From: Vicinamibacteria bacterium
Lineage (GTDB): Bacteria > Acidobacteriota > Vicinamibacteria > Fen-336
NCBI GenBank assembly: GCA_035570235.1
Contig: DATMML010000043.1
Location: 62,001 to 126,000 of the forward strand
Direction: 5' to 3'
Length of the DNA stretch: 64,000 bases
Of this stretch, positions 24,765 to 50,143 are shown in pieces. How positions within the stretch are numbered: position 1 is the stretch's first letter; each line of letters begins with the position of its first letter. A program made the translations under genes and the position numbers. The notes under the pieces are model-generated. The model was not told where the DNA came from and made no database searches. It saw only the letters and a list, made by a program, of their open reading frames with translations.

Positions 24765-24780
24765 TGGCATCCGCCTTGCT
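24765..24780 (+). promoter_or_regulatory. Sigma-54 promoter P3
   Basis: TGGCAT, CCGCC, TTGCT: matches -24/-12 with T for C at the last -24 base. It lies 180 bp before the DUF3494/IPTL-CTERM gene, on its strand. Confidence 0.75.
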
Positions 24781-24959: not shown

Positions 24960-25796
24960 ATGAAGAACCGGCTCTTGAGTTCCTTGGTGGCCGTGGGGTT
25001 CGGCGTGCTTCTTTATGGCCCTTCCCCGGCACTGGCTCAGGCATACTTGGGCACTGCTCAGCCCTTTGCGGTCCTGGGCGGGACAACGGTGACCTGCCTC
25101 GGAGCTGGGACCGCCATTACCGGAAGCATAGGTGTCAGCCCCGGCGCCGCGCCCACTGGCTTCCCGGTTCCGTGCGCCGGTGTCCCGATCATACCGCCTG
25201 CCTCTGATCCGGCTCAGCTTGCTCTCACCACGGCGTACAATACTTTAGCCGCGCTCCCCTGTGCCTCCACCGTGGGTCCCAATCTCGCTGGCCTCACGCT
25301 CACGCAAGGCGTCTACTGTGTTAACGCTGCCGCTTCCAATCTCACTGGAACACTCACTCTGAACGGCCAGGGCAATCCCAACGCAGTCTGGGTCTTTCGG
25401 ATGTCGAGCACGCTCATCACATCGTCCGGCTCGACCGTTGCCTTGATCAATGGCGCCAATGCTTGCGCCGTAGAGTGGCAGGTCAGCAGCTCCGCGACCA
25501 TCGGTTCCGGCACGACGTTCGTGGGAAACATCCTCGCCCTCACGAGCATCGCAATGGGTACCGGCGCAAACCTGACCGGTAGAACCTTGGCGCGAAATGG
25601 TGCGGTGACGCTGGATACCAACACCATCGGCTTCGGCGCCTGCGGCGCCGGAGGCGGCGTCGGCGGCGTGCCGCCTCCCTTCCCAGCGGGTGTCCCGACA
25701 CTGCCCCAGATCGGAGCATGGGCTCTCCTGGTGGTTCTTTTGGGTAGCGGTGCCTACCTACTCCGCCGGCGCACCCCCACCGAGGCGAGCAGATAG
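24960..25796 (+). CDS. Ice-binding-like (DUF3494) secreted protein with IPTL-type sorting signal
   Basis: A 278-residue protein: signal peptide (LLSSLVAVGFGVLLYGPSPALAQ), then a DUF3494 beta-solenoid (residues about 30-225). Recognisable blocks are FAVLGGTTVTC, GSIGVSPG, TQGVYCVNAA, TLNGQGNPNAVWVFRMSSTL, GSGTTFVGNILALTSI and TGRTLARNGAVTLD. The C-terminus has VPTLPQIGAWALLVVLLGSG and then RRR, a membrane-spanning sorting tail of the IPTL-CTERM class recognised by exosortase. DUF3494 proteins include antifreeze proteins, but many non-polar bacteria carry them as adhesins. The 3' end overlaps the convergent methyltransferase by 43 bp. It is preceded by sigma-54 promoter P3. Confidence 0.9.
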   Translation: MKNRLLSSLVAVGFGVLLYGPSPALAQAYLGTAQPFAVLGGTTVTCLGAGTAITGSIGVSPGAAPTGFPVPCAGVPIIPPASDPAQLALTTAYNTLAALPCASTVGPNLAGLTLTQGVYCVNAAASNLTGTLTLNGQGNPNAVWVFRMSSTLITSSGSTVALINGANACAVEWQVSSSATIGSGTTFVGNILALTSIAMGTGANLTGRTLARNGAVTLDTNTIGFGACGAGGGVGGVPPPFPAGVPTLPQIGAWALLVVLLGSGAYLLRRRTPTEASR

Positions 25797-26548
25797 CCGT
25801 GCCGCCGCACGGCCCGAACATGCCGATCGAGCCACACGAAGGGCTTGAGGAGGGCGGCGGTCAGGGGAGCGAGGCGCGGGCAGTAGGAGTGTAGGGCCAG
25901 GTCAGCCATCCGCAGCCAGCCCGGCACGAACAGGATCGCGGTCTCGGCGGCGACCTCGAAGCCGGCCGCCTCCAGCATCTGCCGGAGAGCGCGGCGCGAG
26001 AAGGACCGCTCGTACCCGTAGCCGTAGAGACCGAGCGCCTGCAGTACGGCGGCGAGGAGGGGCCGGAGGAAGGGATCCCACCGGTTTGGCACGCCCACCA
26101 CCGCGCGGCCGCCGGGCCGGAGCACGCGGTGGATCTCGCGCAGCGCCGTCTCGGGGTCACGGAAGTGCTCGATGGTGCCCATGGAGTAGACGGCATCGAA
26201 GCTGCCGTCGCGGAAGGGCAGGCGCCGCACATCGGCCACCAGGCCCCGGAGTCCCGAGTCAGAGAACGCCGCCTGGGCCTGGCGGACGATCGGCTCCGAG
26301 ATGTCGACCCCGAAGACCGCCGCCCCCTGCCCGTGCACCCATTGCAGGATGCGCGTGTTCTTGACCTCGTCCCACAGGTCGGTCTTGAGCACCGCGCACC
26401 GGCCAAGGTCGGGGACATGCTCGGAGAGCAGTCTCTTCTCGTTCTCGAAGTAGTAGACGGTGGACGCCGCGCCACCGAGGTCGGGAAAGTCCTCCCCCAC
26501 CTCCTGCCAGAAGCGGCGGTAGGCAGCGCTGAGGCTAGCGGGGACCAT
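25754..26548 (-). CDS. SAM-dependent methyltransferase associated with exosortase
   Basis: A 264-residue class I methyltransferase. The ATG at 26548 overlaps the exosortase stop by 14 bp, indicating translational coupling. A motif I-like segment is GAAVFGVDISEPIVRQAQ, and later blocks are LPFRDGSFDAVYSMGTIEHF and RVLRPGGRAVVGVPNRWDPF. The usual DxGxGxG glycine loop is replaced by DLWDEVKNTRILQWVHGQG, a form common in proteins that act on surface polysaccharide or lipid precursors. A longer in-frame start at 26623 lies inside the exosortase gene. A role in modifying exported or sorted products is inferred from the neighbour only. Confidence 0.72.
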   Translation of the reverse strand: MVPASLSAAYRRFWQEVGEDFPDLGGAASTVYYFENEKRLLSEHVPDLGRCAVLKTDLWDEVKNTRILQWVHGQGAAVFGVDISEPIVRQAQAAFSDSGLRGLVADVRRLPFRDGSFDAVYSMGTIEHFRDPETALREIHRVLRPGGRAVVGVPNRWDPFLRPLLAAVLQALGLYGYGYERSFSRRALRQMLEAAGFEVAAETAILFVPGWLRMADLALHSYCPRLAPLTAALLKPFVWLDRHVRAVRRHGYLLASVGVRRRSR

Positions 26549-27965
26549 CCACCGCCGGCCGCAGGGGAAGAAGCGTCCCCGCCGGGGGCTGCCCGGCGCG
26601 CCACAGCACGATCGCGAGGGCAACCGGCACCGCCACCGCCCACGCCCGCAGGAAGAGCGCGTGAGCCACCAGGCCCGTATGGGCGGCCAGCTCTCCGAGA
26701 ACCGCGAGCAGGACGACCTGGGAGGCGAGCAGCAGACCGAAGGCCGACAGGAAGCGTCGCCAGCCCGGGAAGGCCGTCATTCCGATAGCCAGGAGCAGCC
26801 CCGCCTGGTAGCCGGGTAGCAGGGCGAGCGCCCCCTGGGCGTCTCCCGGTGCGGTCAGCTCCGTCAGTGCTTGCGGGGCCAGGGAGGCAACCACCCCCGC
26901 AGCGGCGAACACGGCCGTCGTGAGGGCATGTCCAAGAACGGCGGTTAGGATCGCCGCCGCGCCAAGAGCCGCCCCGGCGCGCCGGGCGGCCCGCGCCCAC
27001 CTCCCGGGTGCCGGAGGCTCCCGCCCGAGGGCGAGCAGCACCACGCCGACGAGGGCCAGCACAAGCTGATGGAAGCCGTGGACGAGGAAGAGAGGCGAGG
27101 CGGCGAGGGCGGGGGGCAGGGCCAAGACGAGTACGCGGGCGATGGCGAGAAGGCCGAACAGCGGCAGCGCGGCGGCAAGGGCGACGACGCGCCGTGGCCA
27201 CGACAGGCGCACGGCGAGGACGCCCGCGATATAGAGAGGGATGAGGGCGGTCGCGATACATTCGGGTGTCACGACGAAAGTTCCGCGGCTCGTGGCCAGC
27301 GCGTTGCCGGAAGCCGTGGCCGCCACCCCCGCTCCCGTAAGCAAGAAAGCGGCGGAGCTCACGATCCAAGCGCCGGCCTCGAGCAGGGCGCGACTGCTCG
27401 AGATCCAGGGGGCGCAGAGGGCGAAGGCAACCAGGAGCACCGCCGCCCGGGGCGCGAAGCGACGGACGATCAGGGAAAGCGCATCACCCTCTCGAAAAGC
27501 GCCCTCGGCCCGCCCGCGCGCTTCGAGGGTCCCCCGCATCCAGGCAAAGACGTAGCCCGAGATGGCGAGGATGAGGATCGTGGGCCAGACCTGGAGATGA
27601 AGGGCCTGGAAGAGGGTCGGCGAGGCGGAGGCGCGGCCGAGTGTCGCGATGCGCAAGGTGTTCAGGGCCAGGATGAGGGCGATGCCGCCCGTGGCCCCGG
27701 CCAGACGGGCACGCCAGGGGACCGGGCAGGCGAGGATGGCCGCGAGGCACAGCGCAAGTGCGTCCGTCCCGCTGCACTCGAGGGTGACGGCGACCGGTGC
27801 CGTAGGGTGGCCGGCGTAGTAGTCCGCGGCCTGCTCCTGGAGCCGCGTCAGGGGGAGTACGAGCCGCTCCTCCGCCCACGGGCTGCGCAGCAGAGCGAAC
27901 AGCCCGAGGCTCCAGGCGAGCGCGCTCAGCAGGAATAGGGTCGCCCGAGGCGGCTCCGTCCGCAC
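26535..27965 (-). CDS. Tandem double-domain exosortase
   Basis: A 476-residue polytopic protein. Two exosortase/archaeosortase domains follow each other. Domain 1: TLECSGTDALALC with Cys64, LNTLRIATLG with Arg105 and ALHLQVWP with His123. Domain 2: VVTPECIATALIPLY with Cys235, LAIARVLVLALP with Arg276 and LVHGFHQLVL with His295/298. Single exosortases are usually about 170-300 residues with one Cys-Arg-His triad, so this looks like a fused duplication with both triads kept. GTG 27965 is proposed because earlier starts would run into the divergent gene. Its expected job is to cleave C-terminal sorting tails such as the one on the neighbouring DUF3494 protein. Domain 2 may alternatively serve a different substrate. 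Confidence 0.8.
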   Translation of the reverse strand: MRTEPPRATLFLLSALAWSLGLFALLRSPWAEERLVLPLTRLQEQAADYYAGHPTAPVAVTLECSGTDALALCLAAILACPVPWRARLAGATGGIALILALNTLRIATLGRASASPTLFQALHLQVWPTILILAISGYVFAWMRGTLEARGRAEGAFREGDALSLIVRRFAPRAAVLLVAFALCAPWISSSRALLEAGAWIVSSAAFLLTGAGVAATASGNALATSRGTFVVTPECIATALIPLYIAGVLAVRLSWPRRVVALAAALPLFGLLAIARVLVLALPPALAASPLFLVHGFHQLVLALVGVVLLALGREPPAPGRWARAARRAGAALGAAAILTAVLGHALTTAVFAAAGVVASLAPQALTELTAPGDAQGALALLPGYQAGLLLAIGMTAFPGWRRFLSAFGLLLASQVVLLAVLGELAAHTGLVAHALFLRAWAVAVPVALAIVLWRAGQPPAGTLLPLRPAVDGPR

Positions 27966-28071: not shown

Positions 28072-30132
28072 ATGTCGGGAGAGCCACGGGAGAAGACCCA
28101 AGAGCTGTCGGGGGCCAGGGGGGCCACCCTCGCCTTTGCGGTGGCACTAGCCGCGACGCTGGTCATGGCCGCGCCGGTAGCAATCGCGCCTTCCGAGCGC
28201 CTTTTCGGGAGCAGCCAGACCTTCGGGCGAGAGGACCCGAACCGGGATCCTTTCATCGTGATGGAACAGTTCCGGACTGGCCAAGTCCCCAGGCCCTACC
28301 TGCAGCCGCTCACCGACCTCGCGGGCCGCGTCCTAGCCGGCCCGTTGGGCCCGGTTGCGGCCTACAACCTCCTAGTCCTCTCCTCGTTTCCCCTCGCGGC
28401 CGCCGCCGCCTACCTGCTGGCGCGTTACGTCCTCGGCTCTCATCTGGGAGCCATGGTGGCAGGTCTGGCCTATGCGTTCCTCCCCTTCCACGTGGCCCAC
28501 GCTACTGGCCACCCGCACGTGGCTCAAACGCAGTGGCTGCCGCTCTACTTCCTCGCCTTATGGCAGTGCTTCGACCGCCCGGATCTCCGCCGTGCCTCGC
28601 TTCTGCTCGCCTCCGCCGCGGCGGTGACGCTCTCGAATTTCTACGGGGGGCTCATCGCCGCCGTCCTGAGCCCGGTGGCGCTCGTCTCCTACGGGGTCGT
28701 CTCGCCTCGCGCGCCGGGCGAGGGCCGGCGGCGAAGCCTGGCGCTCACGGGCCTGACGCTCACCGCGGCGGCGGCCGCCGCCCTCCTCCTCATTCACCTC
28801 GTGGCCCCCGCGGTCCTGCTTGATCCGGGAGCTTTCGCCTTCCCCCGCTCCGACCTCTTCCTCTACAGTGCGAAGTGGTGGAGCTATCTCGTCCCCGCGG
28901 TGGACCACCCGCTGGCCGGCTCCCGGGTGCGGGAGTTCTGGGCCGGGCGCGGCCTCGAGGACGCGCTTCTTGAGCAGCAGGTGGGGGTGGGCTGGTCACT
29001 CCTGGCCCTGGGGGCCGTGCCGCTATGGCTTTGGCTGCGCGCGGACCGGAACTCGCTTGCGGCCCGCAGCGCCCCCATCCTGGCGAGCATCGCCGTGGCC
29101 GCCCTCCTTTGCTCGCTCTCTCCCGAGCGGAGGATCGGGTTGTTCACGTTCGTACGCCCCTCCGCGTTGCTTTACGCGGTGGCACCGATGTTCCGGGCCT
29201 ATGCGCGGTTCGGCCTAGTAGTCGGCCTCATGACCGCGCTGCTGGCGGGAGGGGGCGCGGCCTGTCTGTGGCGTTGGCCCCGCTCCGCCGGCCGGTGGGC
29301 GGCCGCGCTCCTCCTGAGCCTGGCCGCCCTGGAGTACGCGCCCTTCCCGCCTTGGCGGTGGCGCGACGTGCTCCCCACCCGCGCCCACCGCTGGTTGGCG
29401 GGGCAGCCGGGCCCGCTGCGGGTGTTGGACTGCGTGTCCCCCTCCCGGGCCTCCGACCTCTTCGCCCTCAGTCTCTTCCCCCACGAGGTCTCGCTCCTCG
29501 GCGGGAGCTCCATCGCCCGAGCGGGTCGGAATGATTCCGTCGGTGCGACGAGCTTCGACGACTGTGGGGAGCCGGAGCTTGGACACAAGCTCGCGGCCCT
29601 GGGCTACACCCACGTCGTCGTCCGGCGGGACAGCGCGGCCGGAAGATGGATAGCGGGCAAGCCGGCGCCAGAAGGGCTCACACGCGGCCCGGAGTTCGAG
29701 GACAGCTGGGTTTGGGTGGTGGCGGCTCAGCAGCCGCGCGCATACGTAACCGGCCTGGTCGGCTTCTACCCTCGCGAATACCTGGGCGAGGTCACGTGGC
29801 GCTGGATGGGGCAGAGCGGGACGTTCAAGGTGGTCAATGCCGCGGAACACCCGGTATCGACCGCGCTGGAGCTGGAGCTTCTGGCGTTTCCTGGCGACCG
29901 CCGCGTGGAGTGGTTCCTCGAAGGGCGCCGGCTCCACGAGCTGGGTGTGGTGGCCGAGTGGCGGCGGTACGTCCTTCCTCTCGGCACTGTCGCCCCGGGG
30001 GAGACTACCCTCACCCTCGCGTGCCACGGGCCGGCTGTGGTCGCGAACGACGTCCGCGGCAACGGCGACCCCCGCGCCCTCTGCCTGGCTGTGGGAAGCT
30101 GGAGGTGGGAGACATCCGCCCCCGTCCGCTAG
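28072..30132 (+). CDS. GT-C-like polytopic membrane protein
   Basis: A 686-residue protein with about ten membrane helices in its first 400 residues and a soluble, beta-rich C-terminal region. An early loop has DPNRDPFIVMEQFRTGQ and then helix-loop blocks such as AYAFLPFHVAHATGHPHVAQ and QWLPLYFLALWQ. This resembles PMT/YfhO-like GT-C enzymes, which transfer sugars from polyprenyl-phosphate carriers. The acidic first loop (DPNRD) could carry the catalytic aspartate, but this is not certain. The ATG at 28072 was chosen because it starts just before helix 1. It is divergent from the exosortase gene. Confidence 0.68.
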   Translation: MSGEPREKTQELSGARGATLAFAVALAATLVMAAPVAIAPSERLFGSSQTFGREDPNRDPFIVMEQFRTGQVPRPYLQPLTDLAGRVLAGPLGPVAAYNLLVLSSFPLAAAAAYLLARYVLGSHLGAMVAGLAYAFLPFHVAHATGHPHVAQTQWLPLYFLALWQCFDRPDLRRASLLLASAAAVTLSNFYGGLIAAVLSPVALVSYGVVSPRAPGEGRRRSLALTGLTLTAAAAAALLLIHLVAPAVLLDPGAFAFPRSDLFLYSAKWWSYLVPAVDHPLAGSRVREFWAGRGLEDALLEQQVGVGWSLLALGAVPLWLWLRADRNSLAARSAPILASIAVAALLCSLSPERRIGLFTFVRPSALLYAVAPMFRAYARFGLVVGLMTALLAGGGAACLWRWPRSAGRWAAALLLSLAALEYAPFPPWRWRDVLPTRAHRWLAGQPGPLRVLDCVSPSRASDLFALSLFPHEVSLLGGSSIARAGRNDSVGATSFDDCGEPELGHKLAALGYTHVVVRRDSAAGRWIAGKPAPEGLTRGPEFEDSWVWVVAAQQPRAYVTGLVGFYPREYLGEVTWRWMGQSGTFKVVNAAEHPVSTALELELLAFPGDRRVEWFLEGRRLHELGVVAEWRRYVLPLGTVAPGETTLTLACHGPAVVANDVRGNGDPRALCLAVGSWRWETSAPVR

Positions 30133-30160: not shown

Positions 30161-30176
30161 TGGCACGCAGATTGCT
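30161..30176 (+). promoter_or_regulatory. Sigma-54 promoter P4
   Basis: TGGCAC, GCAGA, TTGCT: full consensus. It lies 67 bp before the phospholipase-like gene. An inverted CTAC...GTAG pair (30140-30159) sits immediately upstream and could be an activator site. Confidence 0.82.
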
Positions 30177-30242: not shown

Positions 30243-31568
30243 ATGATCAAAGATGCGGCCCGCGCGGCGCGGGCCATTCTGGTGCTTCTGCTCCTGTTCG
30301 GGGTGACCACGCCATCCTCGGGTTACTCCGTGCTTACCCATGAGCAGATCGTCGATCTCCTCTGGAAGGACCAGATTCAGCCCCTCCTGCTGAAGCGATT
30401 CCCGAGCGCCACCGAAGAAGACCTGCGCAAGGCGCATGCGTATGCCTACGGCGGCTGCGTCGTTCAGGACATGGGGTACTATCCGTTCGGAAACGCGTTT
30501 TTCAGCGACCTCGTCCACTACGTGCGCAGCGGCGATTTTGTCGTGGCCCTCGTCCAGGAGTCTTCCGACGTCAACGAATATGCCTTCGCATTGGGAGCGC
30601 TTTCGCACTACTCCGCCGACAACACCGGCCACCCCACCATCAATCGCGTGGTCGCCCTGGTCTTTCCCAAGCTGCGGACCAGGTACGGAGACCAGGTCAC
30701 CTACGCGGACGATCCTAAGGCACACATCCAGACGGAGTTCGGCTTCGACATGGTTCAAGTGGCGAAGAACCGCTACACCTCCGATAGCTATCATGACTTC
30801 GTTGGTTTCGAGGTCTCCAAGCCCGTCCTCGAACGCGCATTTGAGAAGACCTACCAACTGAAGCTCGACGATGTCCTTGGCCACGTTGACCTGGCCATCG
30901 GGACTTTCCGCCGAGCGGTGAGCCAGGTGGTCCCAGAGATGACGCGGGTTGCGCTGCTCTCCCGCCACCTGGAGTTTGTGGACGACACACCCAATGCCAA
31001 CAAGAGGAAGTTCCTGTACTATCTTTCCCGCAACCAGTACGAAAAGGAATGGGGGACGACCTACCGCAAGCCGGGGATCAAGACACGAATCCTGGCGTTT
31101 TTCTTGCGATTGATTCCGAAGTTCGGGCCTTTCAAGGCACTCGCCTTTCAGATCCCCACCACGCAGACGGAGGACATGTACATCAAGAGTGTCGACAAGA
31201 CGGTAGAGAACTACGCGAGCTTGCTTAGCGAGGTCGGCAGCGAGAACCTTCACCTGCCGAACATCGACTGCGACACCGGCCGGGAGCCGCGGGCGGGCGA
31301 GTACGTTCTCAGCGACAAGAGCTATGCGCGCCTGCTCCACACCCTCTCCGAGCACGGATTCGACCAGCTCACGGCCGAGCTGCGCGCGAACATCCTGGCT
31401 TTCTACGCCACCCTGGATGCACCGAGCGCGACGAAGAAGGACCAGAAAGCCTGGCGCCGGACCCTGAGGGAGCTGGATGAGCTCAAGGTGGAGCCACCCC
31501 GAGCAGTACCCGCGCTGACGAGCGCATCGGGAGGGGCGGACTCAACGAATGCCAGCATTCGCCATTGA
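30243..31568 (+). CDS. Zinc-dependent phospholipase C-like secreted protein
   Basis: A 441-residue protein. A signal peptide (ILVLLLLFGVTTPSSGYS) supports ATG 30243, which has GGGGG upstream. The fold resembles the alpha-helical zinc PLC / S1-P1 nuclease group: THEQIVDLLW near the mature N-terminus, HAYAYGGCVVQDMGYYPFG, and ALGALSHYSADNTGHP, with the HxxxDNxGH pattern of zinc ligands. The late half (AKNRYTSDSYHDF, RKFLYYLSRNQYEKEW) is less diagnostic. It may hydrolyse phospholipids in the envelope or outside the cell. speD follows within 100 bp, so both are probably driven by sigma-54 promoter P4. Confidence 0.75.
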   Translation: MIKDAARAARAILVLLLLFGVTTPSSGYSVLTHEQIVDLLWKDQIQPLLLKRFPSATEEDLRKAHAYAYGGCVVQDMGYYPFGNAFFSDLVHYVRSGDFVVALVQESSDVNEYAFALGALSHYSADNTGHPTINRVVALVFPKLRTRYGDQVTYADDPKAHIQTEFGFDMVQVAKNRYTSDSYHDFVGFEVSKPVLERAFEKTYQLKLDDVLGHVDLAIGTFRRAVSQVVPEMTRVALLSRHLEFVDDTPNANKRKFLYYLSRNQYEKEWGTTYRKPGIKTRILAFFLRLIPKFGPFKALAFQIPTTQTEDMYIKSVDKTVENYASLLSEVGSENLHLPNIDCDTGREPRAGEYVLSDKSYARLLHTLSEHGFDQLTAELRANILAFYATLDAPSATKKDQKAWRRTLRELDELKVEPPRAVPALTSASGGADSTNASIRH

Positions 31569-31666
31569 AAGGGCATTCCCTCCGGGACCGGGACACCCGC
31601 CAAAATAGTCCTCCGCCCGCATCGGGGCTTGACGGCACCCCTCGCCTGCGCTTAACTGGCCCCACC

Positions 31667-32023
31667 TTGACGGATCCCCCGCTCGGTACGGAATGGCTCG
31701 TCGACGCGCACGGCTGTGAGGCCAACCGGCTGCGGTCCCAGGAGGCCCTCGCGGCCCTCTTCGACCGGATCGTCCAGGACCTCGGGCTCCGCACGGCAGG
31801 CGAACCGCTGTGGCACGTCTTCCCTGGACCGGGGGGCGTCACAGGGATGCTGCTCCTCAAGGAATCGCACCTCGCCTGCCATACGTTTCCCGAGCGCGGC
31901 TTCGCATCCTTCAACCTCTACTGCTGCCGTCCGCACGAGGAATGGCCGTGGCCGGAGCGGCTGGCCGAGTTCCTCGGAGCGCGACGCGTCGAGGTGCGAT
32001 CGTTTATGCGCGGAGGAGCCTGA
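31667..32023 (+). CDS. speD: S-adenosylmethionine decarboxylase (prokaryotic type)
   Basis: A 118-residue pyruvoyl-dependent enzyme that makes decarboxylated SAM for spermidine synthesis. The self-cleavage site is LLKESHLACHTFPE, where cleavage before Ser creates the pyruvoyl group; the Cys within HxxCHT is the second conserved active residue. FNLYCC and WLVDAHGC complete the core. TTG 31667 gives the usual family length; an upstream TTG at 31565 would add a non-homologous tail and overlap the previous stop. No spermidine synthase is adjacent in this window. Confidence 0.85.
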   Translation: MTDPPLGTEWLVDAHGCEANRLRSQEALAALFDRIVQDLGLRTAGEPLWHVFPGPGGVTGMLLLKESHLACHTFPERGFASFNLYCCRPHEEWPWPERLAEFLGARRVEVRSFMRGGA

Positions 32024-33381: not shown

Positions 33382-33397
33382 TGGCATCTCGCTTGCA
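33382..33397 (+). promoter_or_regulatory. Sigma-54 promoter P6
   Basis: TGGCAT, CTCGC, TTGCA: matches -24/-12 with T as last -24 base, the same variant as P3. It lies 73 bp before the second DUF3494 gene. Confidence 0.75.
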
Positions 33398-33469: not shown

Positions 33470-34414
33470 ATGAAGAGTAAATACTTGATTCTGTTGGCAA
33501 GCATGGGATTCGCCGCGTTTGTTTCGGGTCCGTCTCCGGCGTTGGCCGCCTCGCCAACTCTGGGTTCGGCGGCGAGCTTCGCGATCCTGGGTGCATCGAC
33601 GGTGACCTGTACCGTTGCCGGCGCCGTCACCGGAGACGTCGGCGTCAGTCCCGGTACCGCAATCACCGGCTTTAATCCTGATTGCACGCTTACGGGAACG
33701 CTGCACTTTGGTGATGCCGTCGCGCTTCAGGCCCACGTGGATGCCGGCCTCGCGTACCTTGCCCTCGCAGCACAGCCGTGCAGCAATCCCATACCCTTCG
33801 CCGGTGCTACGCAGCTGGCGGGAATGACCTTCAGTCCTGGCGTGTATTGCTTCGCGTCGTCCGCTTTCCTGAACGGAACACTCAACCTCACGGGCGCGGG
33901 CCCGTGGATTTTCCGGATGGGGAGCACGATCATAACCGGAGTGAGCGAGTCGGGCCCCGCGTCAGTTCTCGTCAATGGCCAGCCCACTTGCAACGGGGCG
34001 GACGTGTTTTGGCAGATCGGCAGCTCCGCGACCATCGGGGCAGGCACTCACTTCGTGGGAGACATTCTCGCCGTCGCTAGCATCGGCTTGGATCCCAACG
34101 CACACCTGGACGGTAGGGCCTTGGCGCTGAACGGTGCCGTGACGTTGAGTGGCAGCAATACCGTCTCCGTCTGCGGCTCCGGCGGCAGCATCCCCCCTCC
34201 GGGCCCCCCAGGGTGCAAGGTCAAGGTGATCTGTGATTGCAATGACCACCACGATGGTGACAACGATCGCCATGAGGGTGACAACGACCACCACGACAAA
34301 GATCGTAGTACCTGCCACGACCGTGACGATGACCACCACGACAAGGATAGCGACCACCACGACAAGGACGACGACCATCACGACAAGGACGGCGATCAGA
34401 AGAACGATCGCTGA
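33470..34414 (+). CDS. Ice-binding-like (DUF3494) protein with His/Asp-rich tail
   Basis: A 314-residue paralogue of the protein at 24960. Signal peptide ([20 protein letters not shown]), then the DUF3494 solenoid with [66 protein letters not shown] and [16 protein letters not shown]. Instead of a sorting tail it ends with [12 protein letters not shown], a small cysteine pair (ICDCN) and about 60 residues of His/Asp repeats ([15 protein letters not shown]). Such a tail should bind divalent metals or carry strong charge. No membrane anchor is seen, so it is probably released. Confidence 0.88.
34230..34411 (+). repeat. GAC/CAC-rich coding repeat (His-Asp tail)
   Basis: Short degenerate repeats of GACCACCACGACAAGGA-type units encode DHHDKD. 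About 60 codons, in frame to the stop. Likely prone to slippage; length may vary between strains. Confidence 0.8.
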
Positions 34415-38594: not shown

Positions 38595-40793
38595 TCAGCG
38601 CGAGGTAGCCCGAGGCCCGGCTGGCGCCATTACTCTGGCTACCACGATGGCCAGCTCGCCTGGCGTCACCGGCTTGGGGACGTGCATCTGGAATCCGGTC
38701 CGCAGCGCGTCCAGCCGATCCTGAGCGCTGGCGTAGGCCGTGAGCGCGATGGCCGGCGTCGCGCCGCCGCGCTCGGCGGGCAGCGCCCGCACCCTCTGCA
38801 AGAGAGCATAACCGTCCTCGCCCGGCATGCCGATGTCGGCCACCAACACGTGGGGGCGCTCCCGCTCCAGGGCGTCGAGGGCCTCGCGGACGCAGGAGGA
38901 GGTGGCCACACGAGCACCGTAGCGCCCCAGGCCGATGGCCATCGCCTCCCGGGTATCTTCCTCGTCGTCCACCACCAGCACGCTCACGCCCGCGAGCGAT
39001 GGTGCGGCCTGCGCCTCTTCCGGGCCCGCCTTGGTCGGCGCCCTCCCCTCGGCTGGCGTCGTGTCGATCGAGACCCCTTGCCCCCGTTGCAGTCTGACGA
39101 TGAACACCGCACCCGACCGCCCCTCGCGATTCCGCGCCTCGACCGTCCCGCCATGCAGCTCTACCAAATGCCGCACGATGGCCAACCCGAGACCCAGTCC
39201 GGCGTGCCGCCGGGTGCTCGATGCGTCGGCCTGCCGGAAGCGGTCGAAGATGTAGGGCAGGAACGCGGGATCGATCCCGGGGCCGTCGTCCGTGACCGAG
39301 AGCTCGATGCAAGAGCCGGCTGCCTCCACCCGCACCTCTACCTGCCCCCCCACGGGCGCGAACCTGATGGCGTTAGACAGCAGGTTCCAGATCACCTGCT
39401 GTAGCCGGCTCGCGTCACCCAACACGGCGCCGGCCGCAGGGTCGATCGCCAGATTGAGCTGAATACCCCTGGCCTCCGCAGCCAGCCGAACGGTGTCCAC
39501 GGCCGATTCGATTAGCTCGGCCAGCCCCACCGGACTCCGGCTAATGCGGAACTGGCCAGTTATGATCCGCGAGACATCTAGTATGTCGGAGACGAGCTGG
39601 GCCTGGGCTTGGGCATTGCGATGGATCGCTTCGACCGCTCGGCTCACGGTGCCGGGATCCGAGCCCGGCTCACGCAGGAGGTGCGACCAGGCCACGATGG
39701 CGTGGAGCGGCGAGCGCAGCTCGTGGGACAGGGTGGCCAGGAACTCGTCCTTCAGCCGATTGGCTGCTTCCGCGTCGGCCCGCGCGAGACGCTCGCGTTC
39801 CAGGAGCGCGGCCCGCTCCTCCTCCGCCCGCCGGCGCTCGGTGATGTCGCGAAGGTATATCTCAAGCCGATCCTCCCGAGGGTAGGCGTGGGCCTCGAAC
39901 CAGCGGCCCGCGACCTCGGACCGCGCCTCGAAATGCACTGCTTGGCCATCGTCCACCGCCCGCTGACACTGCCGCTGGAACTCGGGGTCGGCGCCTTCCG
40001 GGTAGGTTGGCCAGACAACCCTCCCGAGCAGCTCCGACGCCGGCCGCTGAAAGATCATACTCTCGGCGACGGAGTTCGTCGCGAGCAGGCGCCAATCGTG
40101 GTCTATGACCAAATACGCATCCGTGATGCTCGCGAGCACCGTGCTCAGCTGCTCGTGGGCCGTGCGCAGCGACTCCTCGACGCGCTTGCGCCGGTCGATT
40201 TCGTCCTGCGCGGTTCTGTTCGCCTCTTCCGCCGACGCCCGTGCCACCTGCTCGCGCTCGAGCTGCGCTCGCTCGTCCTCCCGGCGCTTGCGGTCCGTCA
40301 GGTCCGTGACGATCAAGCAGAAGACACGCGCGCCCTCGAGGGGCAGCAGGGTGAAGGAGACCTGGGTGAGGACCAAACCTCCGCCCCTCCGGAACGAGAC
40401 CTCGCCGCGGCTGAACCCGCTCCCGGCGGCCTGCAGCAGCCCGGTCAGGGAGGCCACCCCCGGCCCGTCGAGGAAGCGCGACAGCCACGTGCCCAGGATC
40501 GCCTCCTCGGGCACATCCAGCAGCGCCGCCAGAAACGGGTTGCAGTAGAGCACGACTCCATCCTCGGACAGCGTGGCCGCGCCCATCTGCATCTGCTCCA
40601 CAATTAGGCGGTAGGCATGGTCCGCGCTCTTTAGCGTGAAGACCCGGTCTTCCCCGTTAGTCTCCACGACCAGCGCGTCCACTTCGCCGCTGCGGATCGC
40701 GCGCAGGGTCTCTTCCAACTCAGCCACTCGGGAACGCAGCCGCTCGCGCTCTCCTCCCAGCGGACCGCGGTCGGTTCTGGCCTTGACGGGCAT
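38595..40793 (-). CDS. Hybrid sensor histidine kinase of the kai operon
   Basis: A 732-residue cytoplasmic kinase. Two PAS domains (residues about 60-170 and 215-325; blocks LSEDGVVLYCNPFLAALL and LVIDHDWRLLATNSVAESM) separated by a coiled coil, then HisKA with the phospho-His in FLATLSHELRSPLHAI, an HATPase_c domain (NLLSNAIRFAP, DDGPGID, GLGLGLAIVRHL) and a C-terminal receiver (VLVVDDEEDTREAM, phospho-Asp in VLVADIGMPGEDGY). There are no membrane helices. It starts four bases after kaiB and ends the operon. The opening RSGEVDALVV..GEDRVFTLK is typical of kinases found next to KaiC homologues. Confidence 0.92.
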   Translation of the reverse strand: MPVKARTDRGPLGGERERLRSRVAELEETLRAIRSGEVDALVVETNGEDRVFTLKSADHAYRLIVEQMQMGAATLSEDGVVLYCNPFLAALLDVPEEAILGTWLSRFLDGPGVASLTGLLQAAGSGFSRGEVSFRRGGGLVLTQVSFTLLPLEGARVFCLIVTDLTDRKRREDERAQLEREQVARASAEEANRTAQDEIDRRKRVEESLRTAHEQLSTVLASITDAYLVIDHDWRLLATNSVAESMIFQRPASELLGRVVWPTYPEGADPEFQRQCQRAVDDGQAVHFEARSEVAGRWFEAHAYPREDRLEIYLRDITERRRAEEERAALLERERLARADAEAANRLKDEFLATLSHELRSPLHAIVAWSHLLREPGSDPGTVSRAVEAIHRNAQAQAQLVSDILDVSRIITGQFRISRSPVGLAELIESAVDTVRLAAEARGIQLNLAIDPAAGAVLGDASRLQQVIWNLLSNAIRFAPVGGQVEVRVEAAGSCIELSVTDDGPGIDPAFLPYIFDRFRQADASSTRRHAGLGLGLAIVRHLVELHGGTVEARNREGRSGAVFIVRLQRGQGVSIDTTPAEGRAPTKAGPEEAQAAPSLAGVSVLVVDDEEDTREAMAIGLGRYGARVATSSCVREALDALERERPHVLVADIGMPGEDGYALLQRVRALPAERGGATPAIALTAYASAQDRLDALRTGFQMHVPKPVTPGELAIVVARVMAPAGPRATSR

Positions 40794-41137: not shown

Positions 41138-41482
41138 CTACCCCTGCGGAACGATCTGCATGCCGATCAGGGTGCGCTCGGTGTTCGAGAGATCGCCGAT
41201 GAGCTTCTTCACTGGTGGCGGAAGTTTGCGGACCAGGGTTGGTATGGCGATGATTTGGTCAGCCCGGGCCAGCTCGGGGTTAACCAGCAGGTCGATGACC
41301 TCGAGCCGATACTTGCCGCGCAGGTGGGTCTCGCAGATCCTCTTCAAGTTCGCAAAGGCGGCCAGGGACCTGGGCGTCTGCCCCGCCGTGTAGAGCCGCA
41401 GCTCCCAGCGCTCGGCCGCCTTCGCTTTCGCGACTGCAGCCCGCACCCGGGACATGGGGCGGGACCTCTTGGCAACGCTCAC
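41138..41482 (-). CDS. kaiB: KaiB-family protein, first copy
   Basis: A 114-residue protein: [60 protein letters not shown]. It is closer to the canonical KaiB sequence than the second copy, since [10 protein letters not shown] is the usual form. The start overlaps the kaiC stop by four bases, so it is coupled to kaiC. Two tandem KaiB copies allow one to be a timer partner and the other to have drifted to another target. Confidence 0.93.
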
Positions 41483-42951
41483 GCCCTTTGCCCTCTACGG
41501 GCCGGACCTCCCGGGCGCTTCTTAAGCTGCGGGGGCTGGTCGTCGCCGAGGTCGACGCCTCGGTCCGTGAGCCGAAACTCTCGCACGTCGTGCGAGTGGG
41601 CCATGCCGCGCGACTTGAGCACGCAGAGCACGCGGCGGCGCCGACCCTGGCGTTCTAGGTCCCGCAGCACGATCCACGTATCGATGAGAGAGGAGACTGC
41701 CGCCTCCGTCTGCTCCGGGTGGACCCCGGCGGAGGTGAGGCTCGTGAATGCAACCGTAATGCCCTCCGACTTGAGAAAGTCGATGAGCCGCATGAGCATG
41801 GCCTTGTTATCGGCCAGCGACTCGGTCAGCGTAAAGTCGGTGATGGGATCGATGACCACCGCCGCCGGCCGGGACTCCCGGACCGCCCGGTGCATAAAGG
41901 CCAGGTGCGTCTCCAGCCCGTAGATGGTGGGCCGGGCCGCCTCCAGGCGGAGCAGGCCCTTCTTTAGCCAACGACCTAGATCGATGCCGATCGAGCGCAT
42001 ATTCCGTGAGAGCTGCCCTGGCGATTCCTCGAACGAGAAATACAGGCAACACTCGCCTCGGTCGCAGACGGCTTCCGCGAAGCGGGAGGCCAGGCTGGTC
42101 TTCCCGGTACCTGGTGTCCCCGAGATTAGGATGGTGCTTCCCCGGAAATAGCCGCCTCCCAGCATCGCGTCCAGCGATGGTATGCCGCTGGACACCCGCT
42201 CCGAAGACGCTCCGTGGTGTAGCCCCAGCGAGGTGATCGGTAGAACGGAGACGCCGTCGTCGTCGATCAGGAAGGGATACTCGTTTGTGCCGTGGCTGGA
42301 TCCGCGATACTTCACCACCCGCAGCCGGCGGGTGGATACCTGCTCCGTGACACGGTGGTCGAGCAGGATCACGCAGTCCGACACGAATTCCTCGAGCCCG
42401 TGCCGAGTGAGGCCCCCTGGCGCACGCTCGGCAGTGACGACGGCCGTCACACCGCGGTCCTTCAGCCAGCGGAACAGGCGGCGCAGCTCCGCGCGCAGCA
42501 CGGCCATGTTCGACAAGCCCGCGAACAGGCTCTCGATCGTGTCCAGCACCACACGCTTGGCCGCCGCGGTGTCGATGGCGTGACCCAGGCGGATGAAGAG
42601 CCCTTCCAAGTTGTACTCTCCGGTCTCCTCGATCTCGTTGCGCTCGACGCGCACGTACTCGATGAGCAGCTTCTTCTGGGCGGAGAGACGCTGGACATCG
42701 AAGCCCAGGGAGGCGACGTTCTCGGCCAGTTCCTCGGAGGTCTCCTCGAAGGCCATGAACACACCCGGCTCGCCCAGCTCCACGCCGTGCACGAGGAACT
42801 CGATTGAGAGAAGAGTCTTGCCGGAGCCGGCGCCGCCGCAGACGAGGGTGGGGCGCCCGCGCGGCAGGCCCCCTCCGGTGATCTCGTCAAGGCCTTGGAT
42901 GCCGCTGGGAGCCTTGGCTAGAGTCGAGAGAGTCGCTGATTTCTTGACCAC
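41479..42951 (-). CDS. kaiC: KaiC-like tandem RecA ATPase
   Basis: A 490-residue two-domain protein. [10 protein letters not shown] (39-46), [50 protein letters not shown] 42951 fits because MVKKSATLS and [16 protein letters not shown] match the family N-terminus and AAGGA lies upstream; a TTG start at 43002 is less likely. In CII, at the place of the cyanobacterial T426/S431/T432 sites the sequence is [13 protein letters not shown]: the dual site is Ser-Ser. KaiC homologues outside cyanobacteria are linked with stress tolerance. No KaiA is present. Confidence 0.95.
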
Positions 42952-42972
42952 GCACCAAAATCCTTGGTGACA

Positions 42973-42990
42973 GGCGCCGATCTCGGCGCC
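42973..42990. promoter_or_regulatory. Palindrome upstream of kaiC
   Basis: GGCGCCGA, TC, TCGGCGCC: perfect 8-bp inverted repeat just before the proposed kaiC GTG. Possible operator, or a hairpin over the ribosome site. Confidence 0.4.
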
Positions 42991-43075
42991 CCATGACGCC
43001 AATCATATTCTCCATTTGGAGGCCGGACGTCAACCAGCCCTGGAACTCAGCGAGCCCGAGGTCCAGCTCCACTGC

Positions 43076-45687: not shown

Positions 45688-45827
45688 GGGGTACGTCTCA
45701 TCTGCTGCCCCCGTGTCGGCGACGGGGTGAAGCTTCTGGGGCAAAGCGCTCGGTGCCGCGAATCACCATCAAAGGTGAAAGTTGCCCGAACAGGAGCTGG
45801 GAAGGGCAGAGCGGTCCGGAAACTAAC

Positions 45828-47984
45828 ATGAGCGCAGATCAGTCTGTCTCCCCCGCTGTCCACGGTCAGAAGGGGCCCTTGGCTGCACATCAAGGGACGG
45901 AACCGATGGGAGGTGGATTGCCAGGGCGACTTGGGGGTTACGCGATCGGCCTGGGTGCTATCGTCTTTGCCGCCGCCATTGAGCTCGCCCTCGATCCCTT
46001 CATCGACACGAAGAGCCCTTTTCTGCTGTTCCTCGCCGCCGTGATGACTGCGGCCTGGTACGGTGGATTCAGACCAGCGCTGGCCACGATGCTGCTCGCG
46101 GCTCTGGCGAGTCTGATCTTGCCGCCCCCCTTCTCGTTGTCGCGCGGCTTTCCGGGGAACGCCATCAACCTCGCCCTCTTCCTGATCGAAGGCAGCCTCA
46201 TCAGCGTCTTCGGCGCTCGGCTCCAAAGGGCCGGCGGCCTGTCCACGGAGCGGGCCCTCGGCCCACTGGGCAACGGCCAGAAATCCGACCGTAGGGCCAA
46301 GGAGCTTCAACCGGAGCTCGAGATCCTCAACCGGCTCGGCTTGACGCTGGCGGGCCAGCTCAACATGGAGAGGCTGGTCGAAGCCGTGACCGAGGCCGGT
46401 GTCGCAATCACGGGCGCCGCGTTTGGGGCCTTCTTGTACAGAGATGCGTCCGACGGTTGGACCCACTTTGTCTCGGGAGCTTCCCGGGATGCCTTCGTCG
46501 ACTTTCCCTTGCCTCAAGATGCCGACGCCTTTGGTACACCCTTCCCACCCGAAGTCTCGCGGAGTGACGACCTCACGCGGGATCCCCGCTACGGCCAGAG
46601 CTTGCCATTCAAACGGATGCCGCCTGGCCAGTCGCCCGCACGCAGCTATCTTGCGGCACCCGTGCGCTCTGGCTCCGGCAGTTTGCTGGGCGGCCTCTTC
46701 TTCGGGCATCCCGATCCCGGAATGTTCCAGGAGCGTGACGAACGCCTGCTGGCCGGCCTCGCGGCCCACGCCGCCATCGCTGCGGATGGCGCGCACCTCT
46801 ATCGGGAGGCGCAGGAAGCGCGCACGGCGGCCGAGGCAGCAAACCGGGTGAAGGACGAGTTCCTGGCCACCTTATCGCACGAGCTGCGGACGCCACTGAC
46901 GGCGATCGTCGGGTGGGCGCACCTGCTCCAGCGCGGCAAACTCGCTCCCGCCGAGGTGGCGCAAGCCATAGATACCATCATCCGGAGCGCCACCGCGCAG
47001 AACCAGATCATCGATGAGCTCCTCGACGTTTCACGGATCGTCACCGGAAAGCTTCAGCTCGATCTCCGACCCGTGGAGATCGGGGCCGTCGTGAAGGCGG
47101 CGGTCGGGACGGTGACGCCCGCGGCCAACGCCAAGCTCATACGTCTCCAGCTCATCCAGGATCCCGCCGGGAGCTACGTCATGGGCGACCCTGAGCGCCT
47201 CCAGCAGGTGTTCTGGAACCTCCTCTCCAACGCCATCAAGTTCACTTCGAAGAATGGCCGGGTTCGTGTCAGCGTCGAGTCCGTCGGTTCCCAGGCCGAG
47301 ATCGTCGTTGTCGACACCGGTCTGGGCATCGACGCTGACTTCCTCCCCCACCTCTTCACCCGCTTTAGTCAGCGAGATTCCTCGAGCACGAGGGCCAACC
47401 GCGGCCTGGGCCTGGGGCTCGCGATTGCGCGCCAACTCATTGAGCTGCACGGCGGCAGCATCCACGCGGAGAGTCCCGGGAGCGGCCACGGGTCCACCTT
47501 CACGGTGAAGCTCCCCCGATCCCCCCTCACCGCAGCGGCCTCCAGGGAGCGCACCTACTCGCAGGCGGACCGGATCGTAGGACTGGAGGACGCGCCGGAC
47601 CTAACCGGGCTCCGGGTGCTGATCGTAGAGGACGACGACGATGCCCGCGCGCTCGTGGCAAAGGTGCTCGAAGGTCAGGGCGCCTGCGTAACGGCGGTCT
47701 CTTCCGCCCAGCAGGCGCTTGACAAGCTTGAAAAGGAGCCGATGGACGTGCTCCTCAGCGACATCGAGATGCCGGGCACCGACGGCTACCAGCTGATGCG
47801 CGAGCTGCGCCGGCGCCCATCCGAGCAGGGCGGCGCTGTTCCCGCGGGGGCCCTGACGGCCTATGCCCGAACCGAGGATCGCCTCCGTGCACTTCGCGCC
47901 GGCTTCCAATTACACTTGGCTAAGCCCGTGCAGCCTTCTGAGCTGGTCACCGTCGTGGCCAGCCTGGCGGCCCGCCACCTATGA
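45828..47984 (+). CDS. Membrane hybrid histidine kinase (DUF4118-GAF-HisKA-HATPase-REC)
   Basis: A 718-residue kinase. Residues about 30-125 contain a KdpD-like four-helix DUF4118 region (FLLFLAAVMTAAWYGGFRPAL). A GAF domain follows (NRLGLTLAGQLNMERLVEAV ... LAAPVRSGSGSLLGGLFFG). HisKA has LATLSHELRTPLTAI, HATPase_c has NLLSNAIKFTS and GLGLGLAIARQL, and the C-terminal receiver has VLIVEDDDDARALV with phospho-Asp in VLLSDIEMPGTDGY. ATG 45828 is preferred over an upstream ATG at 45753. It overlaps the next kinase by four bases. The GAF domain probably senses a small ligand or redox state. Confidence 0.92.
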   Translation: MSADQSVSPAVHGQKGPLAAHQGTEPMGGGLPGRLGGYAIGLGAIVFAAAIELALDPFIDTKSPFLLFLAAVMTAAWYGGFRPALATMLLAALASLILPPPFSLSRGFPGNAINLALFLIEGSLISVFGARLQRAGGLSTERALGPLGNGQKSDRRAKELQPELEILNRLGLTLAGQLNMERLVEAVTEAGVAITGAAFGAFLYRDASDGWTHFVSGASRDAFVDFPLPQDADAFGTPFPPEVSRSDDLTRDPRYGQSLPFKRMPPGQSPARSYLAAPVRSGSGSLLGGLFFGHPDPGMFQERDERLLAGLAAHAAIAADGAHLYREAQEARTAAEAANRVKDEFLATLSHELRTPLTAIVGWAHLLQRGKLAPAEVAQAIDTIIRSATAQNQIIDELLDVSRIVTGKLQLDLRPVEIGAVVKAAVGTVTPAANAKLIRLQLIQDPAGSYVMGDPERLQQVFWNLLSNAIKFTSKNGRVRVSVESVGSQAEIVVVDTGLGIDADFLPHLFTRFSQRDSSSTRANRGLGLGLAIARQLIELHGGSIHAESPGSGHGSTFTVKLPRSPLTAAASRERTYSQADRIVGLEDAPDLTGLRVLIVEDDDDARALVAKVLEGQGACVTAVSSAQQALDKLEKEPMDVLLSDIEMPGTDGYQLMRELRRRPSEQGGAVPAGALTAYARTEDRLRALRAGFQLHLAKPVQPSELVTVVASLAARHL

Positions 47985-49579
47985 TGGGCGGGACGCCCGC
48001 GGAGGGAGCGCGGATTTCCGAGGACACGGTGCGTCTCCCAGAGAGCGACGACGAGCTTAGAGAGTTTCTCGATCAGGCTACGATCGGCTTGCGCTGGATG
48101 GGTCCGGAAGGCCGCATACTCTGGGCGAACCGGGCCGAGCTGAAGATGGTCGGGTGCTCCGAGCAGGACTACATTGACCACAACATCGTGGAGTTCTTCG
48201 TGGAGCCCGACGCTGCAGCGGACTTGCTCGCCCGGCTCGCGCGCAGGGAGAGGGTCGAAGGCTATCAAGCGCGCCTTCGGGCCAAGAACGGCTCCCCCAA
48301 GAGCGTCCTGATCGACGCAAGCGGCCTCTTCCGGGGCGGCCGGTTCGTCCACAGCCGCTGCGTCACCCGCGACATAACGCTCCTCTTGGAGAGGGAGGGG
48401 GCCGCGCGGCAGCGGGCAGAGGAGACGAGCCGCTTGAAGGACGAGTTTCTGGCCTTGCTCTCCCACGAGCTGCGGTCACCCCTGGGTACGATCCTCGTAT
48501 GGCTCGGCCTGCTTCAGGAAGGTGCGTTGCATCCCGCCGAGAGAGAGCGCGCCCTCGGGGTCATCGAGCGCGGCGCGCGCTCCCTGGAGCGCATCATCGA
48601 AGACCTGCTCCACGCGTCGCGCATCGCCGCCGGCGGGCTCATGCTCACCCCGCAGCTCGTCGACCTCCGAGGGGTGGTCCGGGTGGCGGTGGACACCGCC
48701 TCTGCGGATGCGGCCCTCAAGGGCGTCGTACTCACGCGGTCTTCCGGGGAGATCCCCATCTGGGCAATGGGGGATCCGGGCCGGCTGCAGCAGGCCGTGT
48801 CCAATCTGCTATCAAATGCGATCAAGTTCACCCCAACCGGCGGCCGCGTCGAGGTCGGCCTGGACGCCATCGACGGGCAGGCCCGGCTCCGCGTCACCGA
48901 CACCGGCGAGGGAATGAGTCCTGGGTTCTTGCCATTCGCCTTCGAGCGGTTCCGCCAACAGGACAGTTCGAGCACTCGCGCCCATCACGGCCTCGGCCTG
49001 GGTCTCTATGTGGTACGCCACGTCATCGGGCATCATGGTGGTTTGGTGAGCGCGGAGTCCCCCGGCCCGGGGCGGGGCAGCACGTTCACCGTGCTGTTTC
49101 CCCTGGCGACACACCAAGGGGGGGATGCGAGCCCGTCGAGCACGAGGGAACCGCCTCAGAGCGAGGCCAGCCTTCCTCCGGCCGGCCTGACGGTTGTGCT
49201 CGTCGACGACGATGAGGACGCCCGTGAAGCCCTGAGGCTGATCCTTCAGCAGAATGGCATGCTCGTCACGACCGCGGCTTCCGCGAGAGAGGCGCTCGAG
49301 CTTGTCGAACGCCTGCACCCCGACATTCTTCTGAGCGACATCGCGATGCCGGGAGAGGACGGCCTTTCTCTCATCCGCCGTGTGCGCATGCTGCCGGTCG
49401 ACCGCGGCGGCCAGGTCCCCGCGGCCGCGTTGTCGGCGTACGCCGGGGCGGAAGACCATCGCAAGGCTCTCCAGGCCGGATTCCAGCGGCACATCCCAAA
49501 GCCGGTGGACCCTGTCCACCTGCTCGCCGTCATCGCCACCCTGGCCCGAAAGAGTGTGGGCGGCATTGAGGAAGGATAG
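47981..49579 (+). CDS. Cytoplasmic hybrid histidine kinase (PAS-HisKA-HATPase-REC)
   Basis: A 532-residue kinase: PAS (residues about 25-150; LRWMGPEGRILWANRAELKM, YQARLRAKNGSPKSVLID), HisKA with LALLSHELRSPLGTI, HATPase_c (NLLSNAIKFTP, DTGEGMSPGFLP, GLGLGLYVVRHV) and a receiver (VVLVDDDEDAREAL; phospho-Asp in ILLSDIAMPGEDG). The ATG overlaps the previous stop (ATGA). Two hybrid kinases in a row without an Hpt protein suggest direct transfer from one receiver or kinase to the NtrC-type regulator downstream, or an Hpt encoded elsewhere. Confidence 0.92.
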   Translation: MMGGTPAEGARISEDTVRLPESDDELREFLDQATIGLRWMGPEGRILWANRAELKMVGCSEQDYIDHNIVEFFVEPDAAADLLARLARRERVEGYQARLRAKNGSPKSVLIDASGLFRGGRFVHSRCVTRDITLLLEREGAARQRAEETSRLKDEFLALLSHELRSPLGTILVWLGLLQEGALHPAERERALGVIERGARSLERIIEDLLHASRIAAGGLMLTPQLVDLRGVVRVAVDTASADAALKGVVLTRSSGEIPIWAMGDPGRLQQAVSNLLSNAIKFTPTGGRVEVGLDAIDGQARLRVTDTGEGMSPGFLPFAFERFRQQDSSSTRAHHGLGLGLYVVRHVIGHHGGLVSAESPGPGRGSTFTVLFPLATHQGGDASPSSTREPPQSEASLPPAGLTVVLVDDDEDAREALRLILQQNGMLVTTAASAREALELVERLHPDILLSDIAMPGEDGLSLIRRVRMLPVDRGGQVPAAALSAYAGAEDHRKALQAGFQRHIPKPVDPVHLLAVIATLARKSVGGIEEG

Positions 49580-49922: not shown

Positions 49923-49970
49923 AGCGCCTCCTCGGCGGAAGCCGCTTACGCGAGCCGGCATCTGTGCAGC

Positions 49971-49986
49971 AGCAAGCGCTGTGCCA
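49971..49986 (-). promoter_or_regulatory. Sigma-54 promoter P11
   Basis: Minus strand TGGCAC, AGCGC, TTGCT: full consensus, about 50 bp before the lmo0937-type peptide. Confidence 0.85.
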
Positions 49987-50074
49987 CTCAGCCAGCCAGG
50001 GTCTTTCGCGGATGGCTGCGGCTGGTCCGCCGTTTGTCATGCAGCCGTCGGCCTGCGATCGAGTCCCTCCCTGT

Positions 50075-50096
50075 ACACTCTACAATCTGCTACCGA
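50075..50096 (+). promoter_or_regulatory. Putative activator site D
   Basis: ACACTCTACAATCTGCTACC, with TCTACAA at 50079-50085. Its TCTACAATCTGCT is shared base for base with site B. About 95 bp upstream of P11 and 60 bp before the regulator gene; it could also be part of the regulator's own promoter. Confidence 0.55.
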
Positions 50097-50143
50097 GTTG
50101 GCCCGTGGATGACGCTTCCCCTCTCCGTCCGCCATTAGACTCC

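Follow-up and report, generated by a model that had tools for sequence, protein, structure and literature searches.

The question raised by a 64,000-nucleotide (nt) stretch of the genome of a Vicinamibacteria bacterium (GenBank GCA_035570235.1, contig DATMML010000043.1, forward-strand positions 62,001 to 126,000; G000:C43:62001-126000, hereafter the window) is why a DUF3494 surface protein with a C-terminal sorting tail, a methyltransferase-fold (MT-fold) enzyme and a double exosortase are encoded in overlapping genes. The host genome is 5.7 Mb in size and 99.57% complete. Some soil Acidobacteria carry a small gene set through which the tail of one surface protein seems to be cut off and the protein fixed to the cell by a double sorting enzyme. 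The interpretation preferred here, to which a probability of roughly 0.5 is given, is a dedicated, mostly one-target cassette similar to XrtH/IPTL systems, in which a SpeD-type S-adenosylmethionine (SAM, AdoMet) decarboxylase and the MT-fold enzyme would make an amine-bearing acceptor.

The genes are ordered DUF3494 (24960..25796, +), MT-fold (25754..26548, -), exosortase (26535..27965, -) and a large membrane protein termed gt (28072..30132, +). The substrate and MT-fold genes converge and overlap tail to tail by 43 nt, and the MT-fold gene overlaps the exosortase gene by 14 nt at its own start; an identical 14-nt overlap was found in G005, which together with G016 represents the family and order mates of the window genome. 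The 43-nt overlap is not an artefact of open reading frame (ORF) prediction, because the match of the relatives extends to the last residues of the MT-fold protein. A preliminary description of this DNA, which had placed a DUF3494 gene with an IPTL-like tail against a convergent methyltransferase gene that in turn overlaps the double exosortase, was therefore correct as to the layout. It had left out the SpeD gene, the GT-C-like membrane protein gt and the loss of the SAM loop from the "methyltransferase".

The substrate is a DUF3494/Ice_binding-like protein (PF11999, 170.5 bits) with a signal-peptide-like start, and its export is predicted from the N-terminus as judged by eye. The C-terminus reads ...GVPTLPQIGAWALLVVLLGSGAYLLRRRTPTEASR, in which VPTLPQIGAW is followed by a hydrophobic stretch and RRR, and the sorting tail AGVPTLPQIGAWALLVVLLGSGAYLLRRR is encoded at 25686..25781 (+). 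The sequence and an alignment of 13 tails revealed a tripartite signal consisting of a short motif, a hydrophobic helix and a basic extreme C-terminus. The preliminary description had noted isoleucine in place of tryptophan at position 7 of the IPTL pattern, with the tryptophan displaced; the isoleucine was confirmed, but 6 of the 13 aligned tails have no tryptophan there, and its displacement is therefore no feature of its own. The window substrate gave no match to IPTL_CTERM (TIGR04174, cut-off 20.5 bits) at E values up to 1, while five of ten substrates of relatives passed the cut-off.

The exosortase consists of 476 amino acids, begins at a GTG codon and contains two TIGR04178 signature stretches. 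It scored 42.8 bits against the cut-off of 23 for this exosortase/archaeosortase superfamily model, and in a genome-wide search both domains exceeded the cut-off, with 42.4 and 23.1 bits. Each domain has a catalytic triad, C64/R105/H123 in domain 1 and C236/R277/H296 in domain 2, the codons of Cys64 and Cys236 lying at 27774..27776 (-) and 27258..27260 (-), and the C-terminal membrane part has none. In an alignment of 30 rows the residues are kept in 29 (C64), 29 (R105), 30 (H123), 29 (C236), 28 (R277) and 29 (H296), and the rows without full triads are truncated, split or internally deleted (in G468 the internal deletion is in domain 2). The two domains proved homologous by hhalign (E 2e-7), and a tree set domain 1, domain 2 and the single exosortases apart, each on one side of a well-supported branch, so that a single origin of the double form, with both domains retained since, fits the sequence data. 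Residues 330-456 were considered as a possible third, degenerate exosortase domain; their helix order is similar, but no match was obtained when profiles were compared (E 0.13 and 0.17). A fold search of the Protein Data Bank (PDB) with the exosortase model found nothing at E <= 0.001, and a sequence search of the PDB with the family gave a single chance match. XrtH (TIGR04177) ranks first among the families matched by the window protein and matches all 19 double exosortases scanned, although the window exosortase scores 60.8 bits, below the cut-off of 86.

The pairing of this exosortase with a single substrate is supported by searches of the host genome. No second exosortase was found with TIGR04178, which matches this gene alone, twice. 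With a model built from the 13 tails the substrate was recovered (E 4.1e-13) together with six weak matches at E >= 0.119, none of them at a C-terminus, and the search for further PTLPxIGxW-type tails proposed in the preliminary description gave none beyond the substrate. The general IPTL model placed no tail of the genome above its cut-off, and none of its four weak matches was shown to be a C-terminal sorting tail: two were ruled out as the proteins extend 353 and 408 residues beyond the match start, a third (L007) lies 22 residues before the stop of a 72-amino-acid ORF without a hydrophobic helix and was rejected, and for the fourth (L005) there was no stop inside the examined locus. The genome encodes one further DUF3494 protein (33470-34414), which has a long His/Asp-rich C-terminus and no sorting tail. 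The many tails and sortases elsewhere in the genome that would speak against local pairing were thus not observed, and the suggestion of a dedicated one-target sorting locus gains support from one exosortase gene and one tail in a nearly complete genome and from the usually one, sometimes two, tails per exosortase-positive relative. The sorting part of the explanation is considered very likely.

Co-occurrence of the methyltransferase with tandem exosortases, also put forward earlier as a check, was confirmed among 193 genomes of the class: the double exosortase was present in 28, the MT-fold gene in 26 and both in 25 (Fisher 5e-27, without tree correction). The MT-fold gene was thus found in 25 of 28 exosortase-positive genomes and in one of 165 others (G427, on a 3.5-kb contig with gt). 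The association is more than physical linkage, because the two genes are on separate contigs in several genomes. In G475 the exosortase and the MT-fold enzyme form a single ORF of 728 amino acids (L104:8670-10856). Neither gene was found in plasmid records. Across 396 genomes of the phylum the full-length double exosortase occurred in this class only (6), with 13 single-domain matches elsewhere. These 13 single-domain loci, taken with flanks of at most about 8 kb, served as a control and contained no SpeD or cassette MT-fold gene (0/13); one generic methyltransferase match (E 2e-11) was seen at a locus edge. At a single-domain locus of another class (L223:7310-8524) the exosortase is directly preceded by a tail-bearing protein of 404 amino acids.

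Strong tails (E <= 1.5e-8) were detected in 14 of 16 exosortase-positive genomes, 12 with one and two with two, and in none of 16 exosortase-negative genomes (best E 0.0036). The two positives without a strong tail were G434 and G464, the exosortase being on a short contig. This search is partly circular, as the searched genomes supplied 12 of the 13 training tails, and four tails outside the training set were all found in positives: two tandem DUF3494 proteins (G459), one DUF3494 protein (G435) and one repeat protein (G474) with IPT/TIG-like domains as judged by eye. A tail-bearing DUF3494 gene adjoins the exosortase at 12 loci, and G464 has one that is cut by the contig end. The exosortase neighbour is an immunoglobulin (Ig)-like protein in G475 and a fibronectin-type protein with a PALPLFG/PALPLLG tail in G536, G520 and G519. 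With all loci counted, a tail substrate was found in 20 of the 28 positive genomes, G517 being the weakest case. The spread of DUF3494, Ig-like and fibronectin-type substrates across relatives indicates that the payload varies and the pairing stays. Antisense shadows excluded, the commonest families in the cassette neighbourhoods are exosortase, MT-fold, SpeD, DUF3494 and gt; a few scattered other genes recur in four genomes, such as an ABC ATPase and a regulator-like protein (by eye).

Some loci depart from this arrangement. In G474 exosortase and MT-fold genes are each present twice, and a strong tail belongs to a repeat protein encoded elsewhere (loci L102, L115, L120, L121 and L184), and in G534 (L116:6289-8167) the double exosortase lies in two overlapping frames beside SpeD, with no MT-fold gene, as a split gene or a frameshift. 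A 5.2-kb contig in a metagenome-assembled genome labelled Limnocylindrales contains DUF3494, SpeD, exosortase and MT-fold genes and is 72% identical to L029, whose record shares its sample prefix; misbinning and transfer are indistinguishable in this case.

The MT-fold protein (264 amino acids) was modelled with AlphaFold2 at a predicted local distance difference test (pLDDT) score of 90.5. Foldseek gave matches down to E 1e-16, and the best 50 matches listed were all methyltransferase-fold proteins. The glycine-rich motif I that follows strand 1 in class I SAM methyltransferases was absent from all 27 aligned members, in which K[TS]DLWDE[AVS][KR]NT[RH]I occupies the place of the SAM loop. The window protein has KTDLWDE at this position, with strand 1 of the model formed by residues 52-55 and TDLWDE directly after it, and the Pfam methyltransferase matches start downstream of the replaced loop. 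Because the loop is replaced in 27/27, the enzyme is probably no ordinary methyltransferase. Of the earlier claim that the locus includes a modifying enzyme, the association is upheld by co-occurrence and fusion, and the identity as an ordinary methyltransferase is improbable.

Of the 28 exosortase-positive genomes, 22 have a small SpeD gene next to the exosortase, MT-fold or tail gene. AdoMet_dc was detected in 26/28 positive and 17/165 negative genomes, and 21 positives have exactly one copy, which is the adjacent one in 18. Two negatives have loci that look like cassettes cut by assembly: in G504 the C-terminal part of the MT-fold protein and SpeD form one ORF at a contig start (L248:2-739), and in G455 SpeD adjoins a DUF3494 gene near a contig end. 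In the SpeD tree the adjacent SpeDs are spread over three or more parts, one of them shared with SpeDs from a different gene context, and such repeated recruitment from several lineages argues for a need for the SpeD chemistry. All of 23 SpeDs retain the pyruvoyl Ser, His and Cys motif, all four tested exceed the PF02675 cut-off, and alignments of two SpeDs with AdoMet decarboxylases of known structure span the catalytic residues. Against the TIGR03330 cut-off of 75.65, L106 (83.1) and L116 (107.9) score above and the window protein (69) and L122 (48.9) below. In the window the SpeD-like ORF of 152 amino acids (31565..32023, +) has its start overlapped by the end of a zinc-dependent phospholipase C (Zn-PLC)-like gene (30243..31568, +), for which recurrence in relatives was not shown; this pair lies behind an exact sigma-54 type site (30161..30176, +), and the window SpeD has its nearest relative (71%) in the other SpeD that the host genome encodes. 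On the basis of the wider family we infer that it belongs to the window's own system. Other SpeD genes of the class (L235, L236, L238, L242 and L244) lie in a different context, with a zinc-ribbon-like neighbour in common and in places a membrane protein resembling spermidine synthase by eye. The motif GGCC[CG]GA[AG]ACCGGC, considered as a conserved regulatory element before the exosortase, proved to be SpeD coding sequence and had no Rfam match.

The mechanism envisaged for the cassette would begin with export of the surface protein and its cleavage by the exosortase close to PTLP, via a Cys thioester, the new C-terminus then being handed to an amine by analogy with the archaeosortase ArtA. 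SpeD would supply decarboxylated SAM (dcSAM), and the MT-fold enzyme may be an aminopropyltransferase that uses dcSAM on a lipid or glycan, for which MccD/MccE offer a precedent. The gt protein has weak PTPS_related/YfhO (GT-C-like) similarity, is in the set in half of the relatives and would perhaps present the lipid or glycan acceptor, so that the exosortase could link the protein to the aminopropylated acceptor. The two active sites may let one polypeptide perform two steps or serve two acceptors. The aminopropyl part of the explanation is tentative. The complete scheme, a system encoding its own nucleophile in which SpeD-derived dcSAM and an MT-fold enzyme with a rebuilt loop aminopropylate a lipid or glycan and a two-site exosortase joins it to one surface protein, is conceivable rather than probable.

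Several observations weigh against the cassette interpretation. The profile statistics ignore phylogeny. Among the 28 positive genomes the MT-fold gene is absent from three, an adjacent SpeD from six and gt from 14; AdoMet_dc had no match in G434 and G016 (the latter 75% complete), and the exosortase loci of G005 and G016, both close relatives, have no SpeD. The window SpeD is 3.6 kb from the exosortase, is of another lineage and clusters among SpeDs from a different gene context. Use of dcSAM by the MT-fold enzyme is something that we infer by analogy, and spermidine synthases that use dcSAM retain the glycine loop, so that loop loss alone is no pointer to dcSAM.

The cassette could instead contain a true methyltransferase that modifies the acceptor lipid or glycan or the cleaved protein, while a nearby SpeD serves polyamine synthesis or SAM balance. 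Such an XrtH/IPTL-like system would account for the resemblance to class I methyltransferases in fold and Pfam matches and agrees with the five of ten relative substrates above the IPTL_CTERM cut-off; it is nevertheless judged unlikely, as the glycine loop is replaced in every aligned member and a polyamine role leaves the tracking, adjacency and MT-fold fusion of SpeD unexplained. Another proposal makes the SpeD homologue an altered decarboxylase, for example of ornithine or arginine, with the exosortase linking the protein to a di- or polyamine. SpeD homologues with these activities are known according to an excerpt of PMC10407285, but the tight link to the MT-fold gene would have no explanation and the alignment of two SpeDs with AdoMet decarboxylases of known structure includes the catalytic residues, which makes this improbable. 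A chance grouping of an ordinary exosortase with a surface protein and a methyltransferase of the exopolysaccharide type would suit the variable gene order among genomes and the presence of gt in half of them; co-occurrence, the fusions and the restriction of tails to exosortase-bearing genomes already contradict it, and it is regarded as very improbable.

The preliminary description had also set a substrate under sigma-54 control against a sortase not visibly so. In the window this was the case: a sigma-54 type promoter-like site TGGCATCCGCCTTGCT, TGGCAT-N5-TTGCT, precedes the substrate gene (24765..24780, +), and none of the window's TGGCAYN5TTGCW sites precedes the exosortase. Nine such sites were counted, in the stretch 19520-51606, against 0.08 expected from shuffles, and ten TGGCACGN4TTGCW sites with at most one mismatch against 0.5 expected. 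The contrast was not conserved in relatives, where a site with up to two mismatches was found upstream of one of 12 scored DUF3494 genes (G464; background 11 of 551 ORFs), and the sigma-54 control of the substrate therefore looks local to the window genome. The second DUF3494 gene is also preceded by a TGGCAT-N5-TTGCA site (33382-33397). The sigma-54-rich stretch encodes an NtrC-like activator (49964-51484) and three hybrid histidine kinases (38595-40793, 45753-47984 and 47981-49579), and a protein with a KaiC-like double ATPase domain lies at 41479-43002.

Searches of one literature collection for exosortases with IPTL-CTERM or DUF3494 and for Acidobacteria with PEP-CTERM returned nothing, a mention in a 2012 exosortase survey being possible, and those for XrtH returned unrelated work. 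Searches combining exosortase with SpeD/AdoMet decarboxylase, decarboxylase and gene cluster, or spermidine gave only matches judged unrelated from the listings. Exosortases are said merely to be possible transpeptidases in the portion available of a 2025 paper (PMC11980579). The cassette points to candidate enzymes for making the exosortase acceptor and provides one natural substrate that could be traced. The presence of two conserved active sites within a single sortase chain is a second oddity.

When the cassette was compared with known systems, the TIGR04177 matches of the double exosortases and the IPTL_CTERM matches of half of the relative substrates were the points in common with XrtH, which pairs with IPTL-CTERM (TIGR04174) targets. 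The window exosortase differs in its two sites within 476 residues, compared to an XrtH model of 158 positions, and in its score, and the system differs in its SpeD and MT-fold partners and in the window tail without an IPTL_CTERM match. PEP-CTERM/EpsH (XrtA) systems have sigma-54 regulators and many targets per genome, in contrast to the one or two targets of cassette genomes. An exosortase and a tripartite tail are common to both (PMC1569441); the available text of that paper reports fusions of EpsH-like proteins with other membrane-protein domains and does not contain the words "decarboxylase" and "methyltransferase". In microcin C synthesis, as described in part of PMC10491745, MccD/MccE add an aminopropyl group to a phosphate, which resembles the cassette in pairing an MT-fold enzyme with a decarboxylase. 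The MccD structure 5fcd is at rank 48 among the listed fold matches, below 47 other methyltransferase-fold chains; the pathway is unrelated and has no sortase, and MccE depends on pyridoxal phosphate. The decarboxylase PssD is a pyruvoyl enzyme. Archaeosortase ArtA involves PssA/PssD, and the nucleophile proposed in the section available of PMC7157517 is archaetidylethanolamine, an amine. The cassette is similar to this system in combining a Cys sortase with a putative lipid-making arm that ends in a decarboxylase and would give an amine, and it differs in having a SpeD-type decarboxylase, an MT-fold partner enzyme and a bacterial host.

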